Origin: a virus
Length of the DNA: 32,610 bases
IMG/VR virus record: IMGVR_UViG_3300037247_001698
Location: 1-32,610 of that record
Direction: 5' to 3' (one strand)
Part shown: piece after piece, positions 11,904 to 28,194 of the stretch
Layout: each line of letters begins with the position of its first letter
Numbering within the stretch: the first letter of the stretch is position 1
Made by a program: the position numbers and the translations under genes
Notes under the pieces: model-generated
Database searches by the model: none
The model's input: the letters and a program-made list of their open reading frames with translations, nothing else
Told to the model about the DNA's origin: nothing

Positions 11904-11916
11904 CATTTATATATTT
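11904..11916 (+). promoter_or_regulatory. TATA box with SD-bearing leader for the connector operon
   Basis: ATTTATATATTTT, preceded by AGAAAC, predicts transcription near 11936. Unlike the leaderless sites, a leader with a near-perfect Shine-Dalgarno sequence (GAGAGGAGGT, 11947-11956) leads to the ATG at 11964. Confidence 0.6.
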
Positions 11917-11963: not shown

Positions 11964-12443
11964 ATGATATACGTAAAGCTGAAAATTTCAGCACCATACG
12001 ACAACATAAGAAATAACGGAACAATGTACCTAACTATTGATGGTAAGAGATCAATAGTAAATCAAAACGGAACAAGACCTTTTGCAATCAAGAAGGGTAG
12101 GTTTGTGCCAATCTTTGGCCCAGGAAATATACCCTATGAATGGAAAGGTAGTGAAGAGAAGGACAAAGATGGAAACGTTGTGAGAGTTATTTTAGGACTT
12201 GAAGAAGCAAAGAAAAGGTTTGACCCCGAAGTATTTGAGTTTTTCAAAACTCAACAAGAAGCTTTGGAAGCTGTTAAGAAAGAAGAGAAACTTTTGAAGA
12301 TGCTGCCATTCCAGAAAATGGAAGCAAAAAATGCCAGAGCTAGGGAAAAAGTTTTGAATTCGAGATTCGGACAAAACAGACCAACTATGGATGATGTCGT
12401 AAAGGAAGCTAAAAAAGTAGGCGTTGAATTACCACACTTATAA
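11964..12443 (+). CDS. Conserved-looking virion-module protein, function unknown
   Basis: 159 aa. The N-terminal half is strand-rich with many Gly/Asn turns (MIYVKLKISAPYDNIRNNGT). The C-terminal half is helical and charged (FFKTQQEALEAVKKEEKLL, then RFGQNRPTMDDVVKEAKKVG). It has the strongest ribosome-binding site in the window and its own promoter, so it is probably abundant. No signal peptide or metal-binding motif. It sits between decoration and connector genes, suggesting a head or neck component. Confidence 0.65.
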   Translation: MIYVKLKISAPYDNIRNNGTMYLTIDGKRSIVNQNGTRPFAIKKGRFVPIFGPGNIPYEWKGSEEKDKDGNVVRVILGLEEAKKRFDPEVFEFFKTQQEALEAVKKEEKLLKMLPFQKMEAKNARAREKVLNSRFGQNRPTMDDVVKEAKKVGVELPHL

Positions 12444-12464
12444 TAAGGGAGAAATAAAAAACAA

Positions 12465-12641
12465 ATGGCTTTAGTCGTAACAACTTCAGCAGGAACATCT
12501 GGGAATCCACCATGGGTTCACGTAGCTGGAACCATCCAACAAGTTTTGGATGAATTACAGAATCAAAATGTGAACGCTGAGAAAGGTATTGAGTGGACAA
12601 CTGATTCTGGAAATGCAATCGCAGTATTTTGCAGGAGTTAA
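12465..12641 (+). CDS. 58-aa small virion-module protein
   Basis: MALVVTTSAGTSGNPPWVHV then a helix (TIQQVLDELQNQNV) and a strand ending IAVFCRS. SD GGGAG lies 12-16 bp upstream. Small proteins with this strand-helix-strand outline ending in AVF/AVI are common next to phage connector genes; no function is known to me. Confidence 0.55.
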   Translation: MALVVTTSAGTSGNPPWVHVAGTIQQVLDELQNQNVNAEKGIEWTTDSGNAIAVFCRS

Positions 12642-12654
12642 TTTTAAATAGAGA

Positions 12655-13377
12655 ATGGCATACGCAACTTTGGACCAGTTTAGAAGTGTAACAAATTTTA
12701 CAATTTCAGAAATTTCAGATGCAGAAGTAACTGCTTTAATTGCAGATGCAGATAGAAATGTTGTTAGATTAACGACTACTGAAGTTTATTTAGAAAGACT
12801 TTGGGGAAATGTGGATGGTACAAATGTTGATTTTAAAACAAGGTTTGCACCAATTGCTGATAAGAATGCTGATGGATCTGTAGATGGAGATGATATTACT
12901 GTTTATTATGCAACTTTTGATTCTGTAACTAATTGGAGAGAATTAGGATCTGCTCAAACTGTGACTTCAATTCAAGATAAAGAAGGAATTATAACTATGG
13001 ATACAGCACCTACAAATGTTACTGCTGCTGCTGGGGTATTTGCAATTTATAGATTTGATTCTAGAGGACAAACTTCTATTGATATTTATAAATTAGCTGC
13101 TTGTCAATATTTAGGATATTTAGTTGCTGAGAAATTGAAAGGTAAAACTCCAAATTATAATACAACAGAGATTAGTGTTAGAGAAGATGTTACTAAAACA
13201 GATTGGTTAGGATTGTGTTATGAGACTTTAGAACTTCAAGATAAACTATATTTAAATGCTCCAAGAGGTTTTGGAATTCCACGAATGAATGTAGATGGAA
13301 GCACTCAAGATCAATACTGTGATGCTAAGAGAGGAAGTTGGTGTGGTAATGGCTATAGATACGGAGGATATTACTAA
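12655..13377 (+). CDS. Head-tail connector (gp6-like adaptor) with long insertion
   Basis: 240 aa. The N-terminus (MAYATLDQFRSVTNFTISEI, then SDAEVTALIADADRNVVRLT) is the classic start of gp6-type head-tail connector or adaptor proteins, which bind the portal ring. After it comes a beta insertion (about 50-130, with DKNADGSVDGDDITVYYATF) and then a return to helix (YKLAACQYLGYLVAEKLKGK). The tail is Gly/Tyr/Cys-rich (GSWCGNGYRYGGYY). TAATG overlap with the next gene. A second connector-like protein follows at 13604. Confidence 0.7.
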   Translation: MAYATLDQFRSVTNFTISEISDAEVTALIADADRNVVRLTTTEVYLERLWGNVDGTNVDFKTRFAPIADKNADGSVDGDDITVYYATFDSVTNWRELGSAQTVTSIQDKEGIITMDTAPTNVTAAAGVFAIYRFDSRGQTSIDIYKLAACQYLGYLVAEKLKGKTPNYNTTEISVREDVTKTDWLGLCYETLELQDKLYLNAPRGFGIPRMNVDGSTQDQYCDAKRGSWCGNGYRYGGYY

Positions 13378-18961: not shown

Positions 18962-19042
18962 TATATTGAAAAATTGTTTGAATGGTTGTATTATGATAGT
19001 TTGTATGATTGGAGATTCAATCCTAGAAGAGGTGAAATTAAT

Positions 19043-19453
19043 ATGAAAGAAGAAACTAAATATAGTTCAGCAAACAAAAAGAGATGGTCTAATCCAGAAT
19101 ATAAAAAAAGAGTGAGTAAAAAAATAAGTAAGACAATGAAAGGTAATAAGAATTTTCTAGGAAAAAAGCACTCGGAAGAAACTAAAAATAAAATAAGGAA
19201 TAGTGAATATCATAAGAATTTTAAAAGAAGAGGAAAGGAAAATTATAATTGGAAAGGAGATAACGCAAAATATGGTTCTATCCATGGATGGATTTTAAAG
19301 AATTTCAAATTACCTGGCGTATGTGAAATATGTAAAAAAATTAGAAAATTAGAATGGTCAAATAAGAATCATAAATATTCAAGAAAAAGAAAAGATTGGC
19401 AAGCAGTTTGTCGTTCTTGTCATAGGAGGTATGACTTTGAAAACAAAAGATAA
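19043..19453 (+). CDS. Free-standing HNH homing endonuclease with NUMOD3 motif
   Basis: 136 aa from the ATG at 19043, which has a good SD (GAGGTGA). An in-frame TTG at 18974 would give a longer product but has no supporting site. N-terminal half is a basic linker with the NUMOD3 DNA-binding repeat GKKHSEETKNKIRNS at about residues 40-54. The C-terminus is a zinc-type HNH: CEIC at about 93, WSNKNHKYSRKRKDWQAVC and CRSCHRRYDFENK. Such genes are selfish elements inserted between phage genes. It overlaps the resolvase gene by 23 bp. Confidence 0.8.
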   Translation: MKEETKYSSANKKRWSNPEYKKRVSKKISKTMKGNKNFLGKKHSEETKNKIRNSEYHKNFKRRGKENYNWKGDNAKYGSIHGWILKNFKLPGVCEICKKIRKLEWSNKNHKYSRKRKDWQAVCRSCHRRYDFENKR

Positions 19454-19976: not shown

Positions 19977-20188
19977 TGGGAAAAAAATTAACAGAGAAAG
20001 AGCAAAGAGAAAAAGAAGTTAAGAAAGTATTATCTAAGATTAAAAAGTTAGAGAAGTTTCACGAAGAAGATATTGTTAAATCAGCTTGTTATAAATATAA
20101 CATGGCTATTGTAGATAGAAGAAACGCTGAGGCAGATATTAGAGAAGCTGAACAAAGACTTGATAATGCTAATAGGAGATTGAGATGA
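19976..20188 (+). CDS. Small coiled-coil protein
   Basis: 70 aa with heptad-like Lys/Glu content (EKEQREKEVKKVLSKIKKLE) and a second helix (NAEADIREAEQRLDNANRRL). SD GGAGG sits just upstream (GGAGGTGAAAAAATA). Coupled to the nuclease gene before it and the next gene after it. Probably a dimeric adaptor. Confidence 0.6.
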   Translation: MGKKLTEKEQREKEVKKVLSKIKKLEKFHEEDIVKSACYKYNMAIVDRRNAEADIREAEQRLDNANRRLR

Positions 20189-20877
20189 GAAGTGAAATTC
20201 AAAAACAATATTTAACAGAACATGGAATGGATCCTGAAGCAGAAGGACAATTAATTGATGATCTCTTTTTGATGCCAAAGTATTTGGGATATGAGAAAAG
20301 AAAATTAAATGGAGGAAATCAAAAAATGCCACAAGATTTTAATGAAGCAGTTGCGGAGAGTGTTCCAGTTGAAAAGCCAGGACAACCAGCTCCAGCACCA
20401 ACAGCACCAGTACCTGAAGCACCAGTTGCAGAGCAACCGACTGCACCGCAGTCAGATGGGTTTGGAGCTTTAGATGATTCAGGAGAAATTGAGAGACAAG
20501 AGTTTGACCCTACACCACACATCGGTAAGGATTCTTTTATAGAATTTATCGAGGAAAGAAAAGGACAGTATGGTTATTATATTCGATTGTTATCTCAAGC
20601 TATAGATACTGAGAGTATGGAGATTCGAGCTTCTGCTATTTTTGGATTGGAGGAAGATAAGGATGGGAAGTTAGGATGGGCACCAGATTCTAAGTTGTTC
20701 AACTTCTTAAAGAAGTTCAATGTGAATCACTATCGTGAACTACTTGCTAGCCCAGTGATCGCACCTTTGAAAGATGATAAGGGTGAATCTTATCGAAGAA
20801 TTTCTGGAGGAATGAAAACTCAAGTGAAGATTCAAACACGTCAAGCCAAAGATGGAAAAGAGTATTTAACATTCTAA
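20185..20877 (+). CDS. Probable ssDNA-binding/OB-like replication protein with Pro-rich linker
   Basis: 230 aa. Residues 1-47 are a separate helical segment, 60-95 a Pro/Ala-rich linker (PAPAPTAPVPEAPVAEQPTA), and the C-terminal 120 residues form a strand-rich domain (QYGYYIRLLSQAI, then SMEIRASAIFGLEE, LGWAPDSKLFNFLKKF). The 'YGYYxRL ... DSKLxxFL' outline is seen in phage OB-fold DNA-binding proteins. A strong internal SD (GGAGG at 20311-20315) precedes an ATG at 20326, so a shorter form starting MPQDFNEAVA may also be made. The function is inferred from outline and from the neighbouring nuclease. Confidence 0.5.
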   Translation: MRSEIQKQYLTEHGMDPEAEGQLIDDLFLMPKYLGYEKRKLNGGNQKMPQDFNEAVAESVPVEKPGQPAPAPTAPVPEAPVAEQPTAPQSDGFGALDDSGEIERQEFDPTPHIGKDSFIEFIEERKGQYGYYIRLLSQAIDTESMEIRASAIFGLEEDKDGKLGWAPDSKLFNFLKKFNVNHYRELLASPVIAPLKDDKGESYRRISGGMKTQVKIQTRQAKDGKEYLTF

Positions 20878-21243: not shown

Positions 21244-21256
21244 TATATACTTTATT
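21244..21256 (+). promoter_or_regulatory. Promoter-like TATATACTTTATT before the structured RNA
   Basis: This 13-mer also occurs at 23154-23166 before another gene block. From here transcription would start near 21272, a few bases before the first hairpin of the non-coding RNA, so the RNA probably has its own promoter. Confidence 0.5.
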
Positions 21257-21470
21257 ACTTTATTTTTATTGTTTGTTTTGCAATAAACACCGGGGGGTTT
21301 TGTTACCTCATTTCCCCCCTATCATAGTCATTTTGGAAAGACGGTGCAAGACCGTCGTCGCTCATGCCGTTGGAGTCCTAGGGTTGAGTAAAGTAATTAG
21401 TACTCTTCATATCCGACAATGACCTGATAGCAAACCTCTAAAGGGAACAGCATTCCAAAATGTCACTTAA

Positions 21471-21555
21471 CCACCCGTAGTTTAATAGAAAAAACAGGAG
21501 GGCGCGCCTATAAATACAGAGCCTCCTAATGTGGGTTAAAGTCCTGCCGGGTGGA
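21471..21555 (+). tRNA. tRNA-like element, degenerate or intron-bearing
   Basis: A perfect 7-bp acceptor-type helix (CCACCCG/CGGGTGG), then TA, a D-stem-like GTTT/AAAC, an anticodon-stem-like GGAGG/CCTCC, variable TAAT, and a T-stem GTGGG/CCTGC directly adjoining the acceptor with loop TTAAAGT. Oddities: the anticodon loop is 20 nt instead of 7 (room for a ~13-nt intron), the T-loop lacks the invariant C56, and the D-loop lacks GG. I cannot assign an anticodon. It may be one domain of the larger RNA. Confidence 0.4.
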
Positions 21556-21616
21556 ATTGGGTCAGTTACCCATTAGGCCTAGTTTAATAACTTGACACCC
21601 AGGAAAGACTGGGACT

Positions 21617-21634
21617 TACTGTTCATGAACAGTA
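21617..21634. repeat. Perfect 18-bp palindrome
   Basis: TACTGTTCATGAACAGTA reads the same on both strands. Within the structured RNA it would form an 8-bp stem or mediate dimerisation; in DNA it could be a protein site. Confidence 0.6.
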
Positions 21635-21833
21635 GAATGTACAGTAAAAAATCATAGTCATCGGACAAAACCAGGAACCTTCGGGAATCTAGGAATGGCT
21701 CTCTCCAAGAGTTCAAATGTTGGAGTGGGAGAAATCCTACCGATGACAATCATAGTCACCGTGTGGGTTGGAGTGATGCCGAAAAGCAGGCGCCACAATT
21801 TGCGGACGGCTCGAAAACGAGACCCACAATCAA

Positions 21834-21905
21834 GACCCCTACGCTGTTCGGTACATTGGAAAGTCTCAGAAATGAGGGGAGCAGGTTCGAATCCTGCAGG
21901 GGTCA
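21834..21905 (+). tRNA. tRNA-like 3' domain with canonical T-arm
   Basis: Acceptor helix GACCCCT/AGGGGTC (21834-21840 with 21898-21904), a fully canonical T-arm GCAGG-TTCGAAT-CCTGC (21881-21897) abutting it, and discriminator A. The length of 72 nt is normal. The 40 nt in the middle do not form ordinary D and anticodon arms. Instead they give a hairpin TCTCA-GAAA-TGAGG. So it is either a divergent tRNA or a tRNA mimic closing the larger RNA. The reverse strand here encodes the well-known false protein start MTPAGFEPA, a hallmark of antisense tRNA sequence. Confidence 0.5.
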
Positions 21906-21918
21906 TTCATAATCAAAA

Positions 21919-22068
21919 ATGGAAAAAGAAATGTATGGAGAGATTTGTCAATGTGGACATTTAAAGGAATGTCATAGTCCACACGAGTTAGATGAACATG
22001 GTGGAAAGTGTTTACATTGTGATTGTACTATCTATACTTGGAAAGCTTTTGTTTGGAGGGATAAATAA
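21919..22068 (+). CDS. Zinc-binding microprotein (CxC...CH...CxxCxC)
   Basis: 49 aa: CQCGHLKECHSPHELDEHGG then CLHCDC and an aromatic tail YTWKAFVWRDK. The Cys/His spacing fits one or two zinc sites. It begins only 13 bp past the tRNA-like element, so it may be transcribed with the RNA. Typical of small phage proteins of unknown role. Confidence 0.6.
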   Translation: MEKEMYGEICQCGHLKECHSPHELDEHGGKCLHCDCTIYTWKAFVWRDK

Positions 22069-23151: not shown

Positions 23152-23153
23152 TT

Positions 23154-27585: not shown

Positions 27586-27870
27586 ATGGTATTGAATTCT
27601 AATGGATACAAGTACGCGAGGAAATCACAGAAAGATTTAACCTTCAAGATTAAGAGATTAAAATTATTACATCTTAGAATATTAACAAGGATTGAGAAAA
27701 TAAATATCTATTTAGGTAATGAAGGTTTAGGAGATAAAGAACTTAAAACAAAGTTATCTTTATTATCCCAACTAATCGGAGTAAAGAAACAAGTGGCTGC
27801 GGAGATTAAGGAGTTAGGCACGGGGAATGTAAAAGGTGAATCTTCTATTGGTGACATTCTTAATAACTAA
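27586..27870 (+). CDS. Small helical protein, possible terminase small-subunit candidate
   Basis: 94 aa, basic and helical (MVLNSNGYKYARKSQKDLTF; IKRLKLLHLRILTRIEKINI; LSQLIGVKKQVAAEIKELG). It is the only gene of real size between the helicase and the terminase block, and has its own strong promoter. A DNA-binding packaging accessory is possible but no HTH is clear. Leaderless start at 27586; a second ATG 19 bp upstream (27567) is in another frame. Confidence 0.55.
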   Translation: MVLNSNGYKYARKSQKDLTFKIKRLKLLHLRILTRIEKINIYLGNEGLGDKELKTKLSLLSQLIGVKKQVAAEIKELGTGNVKGESSIGDILNN

Positions 27871-27938
27871 CTCCCGTGTCTCAGGTTCCCGTGTCCCCCC
27901 TATCCTCTGTACCGAATAACTATTCACGTGACTATTTC

Positions 27939-28013
27939 CCTAAGCCGAAACGCATATCGATCCGCGTGAAGAGAAGGAAGATTCCACGCGTCTGCGTAAG
28001 CGTGTCGGCTAGG
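27939..28013 (+). ncRNA. GC-rich nested hairpin RNA, element 1
   Basis: Outer helix CCTA(A)GCCGA with TCGGCTAGG (27939-27948 with 28005-28013), middle ACGCA/TGCGT (27950-27954 with 27993-27997) and inner CGCGTG/CACGCG (27963-27968 with 27985-27990). The block is much richer in G+C than the AT-rich genome and has no reading frame, so it is likely RNA. It nests like a single long hairpin. Confidence 0.6.
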
Positions 28014-28014
28014 T

Positions 28015-28123
28015 GTTCCGTGTGAGCACGCTGCCACGCGTCTATTTTAAATCAGTCGGCCAGGGGGAAGGGGGATGGGCCGAAGGATTTAAAAGACGGT
28101 GGAGCGCCACGCCCACACGGAAC
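28015..28123 (+). ncRNA. GC-rich long hairpin RNA, element 2
   Basis: Closed by 10 perfect pairs (GTTCCGTGTG 28015-28024 with CACACGGAAC 28114-28123). Inside: CCAC/GTGG, then GTC(TA)TTTTAAATC with GATTTAAAAGAC, and TCGGCC with GGCCGA (28056-28061 with 28078-28083). The apical loop is purine-only, AGGGGGAAGGGGGAT (28062-28076), able to pair with CCCCCC at 27895-27900 in a long-range contact. Immediately after element 1. Could be a regulatory, packaging or replication RNA. Confidence 0.6.
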
Positions 28124-28133
28124 CAATGGAATC

Positions 28134-28162
28134 GGTAGCCCCTCTGTAAACGTGGGGCTACC
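28134..28162 (+). ncRNA. 9-bp hairpin closing the GC-rich block
   Basis: GGTAGCCCC (28134-28142) pairs perfectly with GGGGCTACC (28154-28162), loop TCTGTAAACGT. Not followed by a T-run, so not a typical bacterial terminator. Confidence 0.6.
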
Positions 28163-28194
28163 TCACTTGAATAAATAAACTGGAGTGATTGAAT

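Follow-up and report, generated by a model that had tools for sequence, protein, structure and literature searches.

A non-coding stretch with tRNA-like domains that lack a usable anticodon in a probable archaeal virus

The window analyzed here, a virus record of 32,610 bases taken at its full length, contains a non-coding stretch of approximately 620 bases composed of consecutive folded domains. Two of these domains, denoted D2 and D5, are tRNA-like as judged by model matches and predicted folds, and two others, D3 and D4, are possibly so in their outer geometry only. Since neither D2 nor D5 contains a usable anticodon as the sequences stand, their role is probably in RNA processing, or in some other function that does not involve reading of the genetic code. 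The stretch is best read as a putative non-coding viral transcript, or as the structured leader of a downstream operon. We tentatively favor an explanation in which the tRNA-like structures are kept for the processing of this RNA or leader by RNase P and tRNase Z.

The virus and its probable host

The window encodes an HK97-type capsid protein (phrog_1357), a terminase, a portal protein (weak match) and a D5-type primase, and appears to represent a small head-tailed virus, the host of which is probably an archaeon. Since the best named relative of the capsid protein belongs to an Altiarchaeum virus (E 4e-21) and TATA-like elements lie 5' of likely transcription units in the window, the host is likely archaeal, perhaps a member of the DPANN. 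The capsid relationship is consistent with an earlier note on this DNA, which had assigned it to an archaeal virus. The terminase likeness extends to Thermus phages, and a related primase is present in contigs binned as bacterial, for which misbinning is possible. Approximately 2 kb upstream of the RNA, an ORF at 18974–19453 carries a NUMOD3 motif and matches a homing endonuclease (phrog_314, E 6e-7).

Architecture of the non-coding stretch

The local G+C content is 0.465, compared with 0.33 window-wide. Two ORFs overlap the stretch, one on the plus strand (21695–21964) and one on the minus strand (21906–21658), with codon log-odds of −0.39 and −0.17, while all 14 genes scored, five of which had played no part in training, gave positive values. 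These values bear out the earlier note in its claims that the G+C content is locally raised and that no credible gene is present. The stretch is preceded by a TATA-like putative promoter element, TATATACTTTATT (21244–21256, plus strand). This 13-mer, already described as promoter-like, has just two exact occurrences, at 21244 and at 23153, in each case upstream of a likely transcription unit, and a copy with one mismatch at 11908 precedes the ORF at 11964. Transcription would be expected to start approximately 25–30 nt 3' of the element at 21244. At the other end, a small Cys/His-rich ORF of 49 aa (21919–22068, plus strand; codon score 0.12) begins 13 nt 3' of the end of D5 and is likely the downstream message.

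The domains follow one another on the plus strand, and the six closing helices listed in the earlier note are all present in the sequence. D0 (21292–21319) is a G6/C6 hairpin with the helix 21292–21297/21314–21319. D1 (21329–21462) is multi-branched and not tRNA-like, and is closed by a 10-bp stem formed by the inverted repeat 21329–21338/21453–21462 (local z −2.4). D2 (21471–21555) adopts a full cloverleaf as its MFE structure, with the stem 21471–21477/21548–21554. The adjoining region, D2b (21556–21650), comprises predicted hairpins that include an 18-nt palindrome, TACTGTTCATGAACAGTA (21617–21634), and has TAGTTTAATA in common with the D-arm region of D2. D3 (21657–21747) combines a 7-bp (8-bp) closing stem, 21657–21663/21741–21747, with a hairpin set directly against the 3' strand, and D4 (21762–21828) similarly combines a 7-bp closing stem, 21762–21768/21822–21828, with an abutting 4-bp hairpin. 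The 3' domain, D5 (21834–21905), is closed by the stem 21834–21840/21898–21904.

A 9-nt separator, TCATAGTCA, occurs in three exact copies in the window, all within the RNA stretch. The first (21322–21330) precedes D1, the second (21652–21660) overlaps the 5' end of D3, and the third (21750–21758) precedes D4. A version with one mismatch, TCATAATCA, is located at 21907, just 3' of D5. The separator and the stronger internal tRNA-like domain, D2, were absent from the earlier description. Regarding the loops that it reported, a GNRA loop is found as GAAA at 21869–21872, while the UUCG loops are weak, one being placed on a 2-bp stem and the other being better read as the D-loop of D5.

tRNA-like domains and loss of the anticodon

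A search of the whole window with the Rfam tRNA model (RF00005; gathering cut-off 29 bits) yielded two matches, both in the RNA stretch. D2 scored 41.3 bits (E 3e-9), above the cut-off, and D5 scored 23.8 bits (E 2e-4), below it; D3 and D4 gave no match to the tRNA model even at E 10. A fast Rfam gathering scan missed D2, which was recovered by the permissive search. The stretch had previously been proposed to end in a tRNA-like domain, and D5 indeed occupies this position, but the proposal understated the likeness, as the better tRNA match, D2, lies inside.

A strict acceptor-plus-T-arm motif, defined as a 7-bp stem and, immediately before its 3' strand, a 5-bp hairpin with a loop of 6–8 nt, occurs three times in the RNA stretch and nowhere else on the plus strand of the window. 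At least two such units were found in 0 of 400 dinucleotide shuffles and in 0 of 102 window tiles, and when a 4-bp hairpin is allowed, 21762–21828 becomes a fourth unit. Since the motif was defined after the sequence had been viewed, the shuffle counts lend support but do not amount to a clean test, a weakness from which the Rfam tRNA result is free. Across the four units, 28 of 28 acceptor-stem pairs are Watson–Crick. An A, the commonest discriminator base, lies directly 3' of every unit, and none encodes CCA. The acceptor stem is stacked directly on the T-arm in the predicted folds of D2 and D5, and in D3 and D4 by geometry only. Every cloverleaf helix is paired in D2, in which the T-loop is an odd TTAAAGT and GG, C56 and G19 are absent. 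D5 has the length of a tRNA, and its acceptor stem and T-arm are both perfect; the T-arm carries TTCGAAT (UUCGAAU) and the D-loop carries GG.

The anticodon regions of both domains are altered. In D2, the anticodon loop consists of 20 nt (21502–21521), GCGCGCCUAUAAAUACAGAG, instead of 7 nt with U33. A palindrome, GGCGCGCC (21501–21508), is followed in this loop by a TATA-box-like octamer, TATAAATA (together 21501–21516), and one might speculate that the pair is an internal promoter or takes part in a kissing loop. In D5, the anticodon arm is replaced by a 5-bp GAAA-capped hairpin, TCTCA-GAAA-TGAGG. ARAGORN at default settings, with or without introns, detected no ordinary tRNA.

Folding of the full-length RNA

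The folding energy of the stretch is only modestly beyond chance, with z of about −2.1 over 635 nt and −2.16 over 663 nt, and the minus strand is nearly equal to the plus strand (z −2.05). Folding energy by itself would therefore not single out this stretch. Single domains gave z values of −1.6 to −2.5, with boundaries picked post hoc. When the full-length sequence is folded as an ensemble, the stems that close D2, D3 and D5 (at 21471, 21657 and 21834) form with near certainty (0.81–1.0). The closing stem of D3 has a probability of 0.97 and its T-arm-like hairpin only 0.01–0.05, while the closing stems of D1 (21329) and D4 (21762) have probabilities of 0.2–0.28 and approximately 0.07, respectively.

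Search for related RNAs

Two related genomes, G001 and G002, have the capsid protein in common with the window (71% and about 62%), as well as the terminase and a protein encoded at 20185–20877, one small ORF upstream of the RNA. A distantly related virus, G003, has the primase in common (60%) and carries, close to the primase gene, a compact array of tRNA genes, which makes the origin of the RNA from such an array plausible. No homologue of the RNA was found in these three genomes by blastn, and a plasmid search gave no match to it. Scans with the neighboring protein, capsid, terminase and primase retrieved only the same three genomes, two bacterial-binned contigs and remote terminases, none of which showed the RNA.

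Several candidates were considered and rejected. The region upstream of the tRNA array in G003 contains, in an order that matches the RNA, GTCGCTCATG, CCGACAA and CCTGATA, but the local alignment scored 51 and shuffles reached up to 62. In G002, a candidate homologue of D1 at 11.2–11.4 kb has its 5' stem strand inside an ORF and aligns no better than shuffles. A two-separator pattern matched viral contigs 22 times; all of the matches overlap open frames of at least 117 codons and none resembles the RNA. A blastn match in a Salinibacter phage is antisense within an annotated protein gene and was taken as chance; the same search also returned two Listeria matches.

Proposed processing by tRNA enzymes and alternative explanations

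RNase P and RNase Z recognize the elbow and the T-arm/acceptor stack, not the anticodon (PMC4810234). The features kept in the viral RNA are those that these enzymes read, and those lost are the ones needed for decoding, which is the basis of our tentative preference for processing. D2 and D5 retain what the end-processing enzymes measure, namely the acceptor stem on the T-arm and, in D5, also the elbow loops. The most likely course is cleavage at these two domains by RNase P and tRNase Z of the host, which would give D1 and the D2b–D4 block defined ends. Since the downstream ORF starts so close to D5, cleavage at the D5 3' end would also free an almost leaderless mRNA for it. By analogy, the 3' ends of MALAT1 and NEAT1 and mitochondrial tRNA punctuation likewise place tRNA-like domains at the ends of non-coding RNAs, in a form suited to RNase P and RNase Z, although those systems are eukaryotic or organellar and processing of the viral RNA is only predicted. 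Several findings count against the processing explanation: no homologue was found in the searches above; D3 and D4 show no sequence signals of a tRNA, and the full-length ensemble does not favor a tRNA-like fold for either; D2 lacks C56 and G19 and has an odd T-loop; and the fold energy of the whole region is modest.

The main rival, which we consider possible but less probable, is a degenerating tRNA array, that is, a former small viral tRNA cluster like that of G003, now reduced to decayed, functionless tRNA genes. The viral RNA resembles tRNAs and phage tRNA arrays in its acceptor stems, T-arms and overall length, in the full cloverleaf of D2, in the clustering of its domains on one strand of a head-tailed virus, and in not encoding CCA. 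It differs from them in that its two tRNA-like domains have no usable anticodon, D3 and D4 share the outer geometry only, and structured non-tRNA domains and a separator repeat lie in between. The array near the primase of G003, the graded tRNA scores (41.3, 23.8 and none) and the missing conserved tRNA bases are all in keeping with decay. However, random decay should break helices, while the acceptor stems are fully paired and all D2 helices are intact. Furthermore, the separators are repeated between domains, and simple decay would rarely create a hairpin such as the GAAA-capped one in the anticodon-arm place of D5. Owing to the fully Watson–Crick acceptor stems and this new hairpin, non-decoding structures kept for processing are favored over decay.

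Should these domains prove to be maintained, they would show the tRNA fold being put to non-decoding use by a virus that probably infects an archaeon, a case relevant to the question of why viral genomes include tRNA genes, and the stretch would offer a concrete test case for the processing of archaeal non-coding RNA by tRNA enzymes. A stronger proposal, which we regard as rather unlikely, is that the stretch represents a new archaeal-virus RNA class, in which tRNA-like domains lacking an anticodon are maintained in tandem, together with a separator repeat, and are processed by host tRNA enzymes into stable RNAs acting during infection.

Less probable again is a role as decoys or resistant mimics, in which tRNA-like RNAs without a cleavable anticodon loop would tie up tRNA-binding or tRNA-cutting proteins of the infected host. 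The domains retain the tRNA body, and their altered anticodon regions recall a feature that has been proposed for phage tRNAs escaping defences directed at tRNAs (PMC10264068); the evasive phage tRNAs on record, however, still decode.

The odds appear slightly lower for a new ornate RNA, in which one large, perhaps oligomeric structure would use the tRNA-like domains architecturally. GOLLD and ROOL, the kind to which the earlier note had compared the stretch, lie near tRNA islands and oligomerize through kissing loops (PMC12286853). The viral RNA is likewise a large multi-domain non-coding RNA in a phage context tied to tRNA-like elements, and the self-complementary palindrome exposed in the D2 loop could kiss. 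In contrast to GOLLD and ROOL, its tRNA-like modules are part of the RNA itself and its host is probably archaeal. No Rfam ornate RNA family, GOLLD and ROOL included, was matched at gathering thresholds or at E 10, so the comparison does not hold at the level of family membership; the fold energy is modest, and no homologue supports a single architecture. A tmRNA also joins a tRNA-like domain to a large structured RNA, but the 5' and 3' ends of the viral RNA form no single tRNA-like domain. Candidate tmRNAs with unidentified tags came from ARAGORN only once its threshold had been lowered, and were rejected, there being no tmRNA match in Rfam or with default ARAGORN. By the tests applied to its sequence, the RNA is not GOLLD, ROOL or tmRNA, and we rate it as a kind of viral tRNA-like element.

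A functional tRNA gene in D2, interrupted by an unusual anticodon-loop intron and with the rest of the stretch as spacer, is very improbable. D2 lies above the RF00005 cut-off, and ARAGORN with a lowered threshold and introns allowed suggests Leu(CAG) with a 13-nt intron. This suggestion is unconvincing because no single excision in the 20-nt loop yields a 7-nt loop with U33; moreover, no bulge-helix-bulge or Leu-type long variable arm is seen and default ARAGORN returned nothing. As D2 passes the tRNA model but could not decode as it stands, it is not filed as a tRNA.

Fragments of tRNA genes from viral integration occur in archaea (PMC9897764) and the 3' half of D5 is its most canonical part, but D5 is scarcely credible as the attachment-site fragment of a host tRNA gene, as a 3' fragment should have neither a matching 7-bp 5' acceptor strand nor a GG-bearing D-loop, and no integrase was found among the window proteins scanned.

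Other structured stretches in the window and its relatives

The 200-nt tile with the lowest z in the window lies elsewhere, at 28.0–28.2 kb (tile 28001, z −4.45). It belongs to a second G+C-rich, strongly folded non-coding stretch (27870–28175; z −3.8 for 300 nt), located between a small ORF (27586–27870) and the terminase gene. G002 contains a longer strongly folded stretch (L031 2680–3560, minus strand; z −3.2 and −5.7) at an apparently equivalent position. Local alignment of this second stretch or its G002 counterpart to the RNA at 21.3–21.9 kb was unsuccessful. The stretch at 27870–28175 is possibly the better structured-RNA candidate of the two. In G003, approximately 400 nt of structured non-coding sequence (L026 11800–12230, z −2.8) precedes the tRNA array (12230–13107), and in G001, an intergenic region on the minus strand (L029 7272–7737) forms very strong hairpins (z −6.7). 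G002 also has a sequence repeated near both of its ends (L031 11–83 and near 32997), of which the copy at 11–83 matches the tRNA model weakly (15.4 bits) and is possibly an attachment site or a tRNA fragment.
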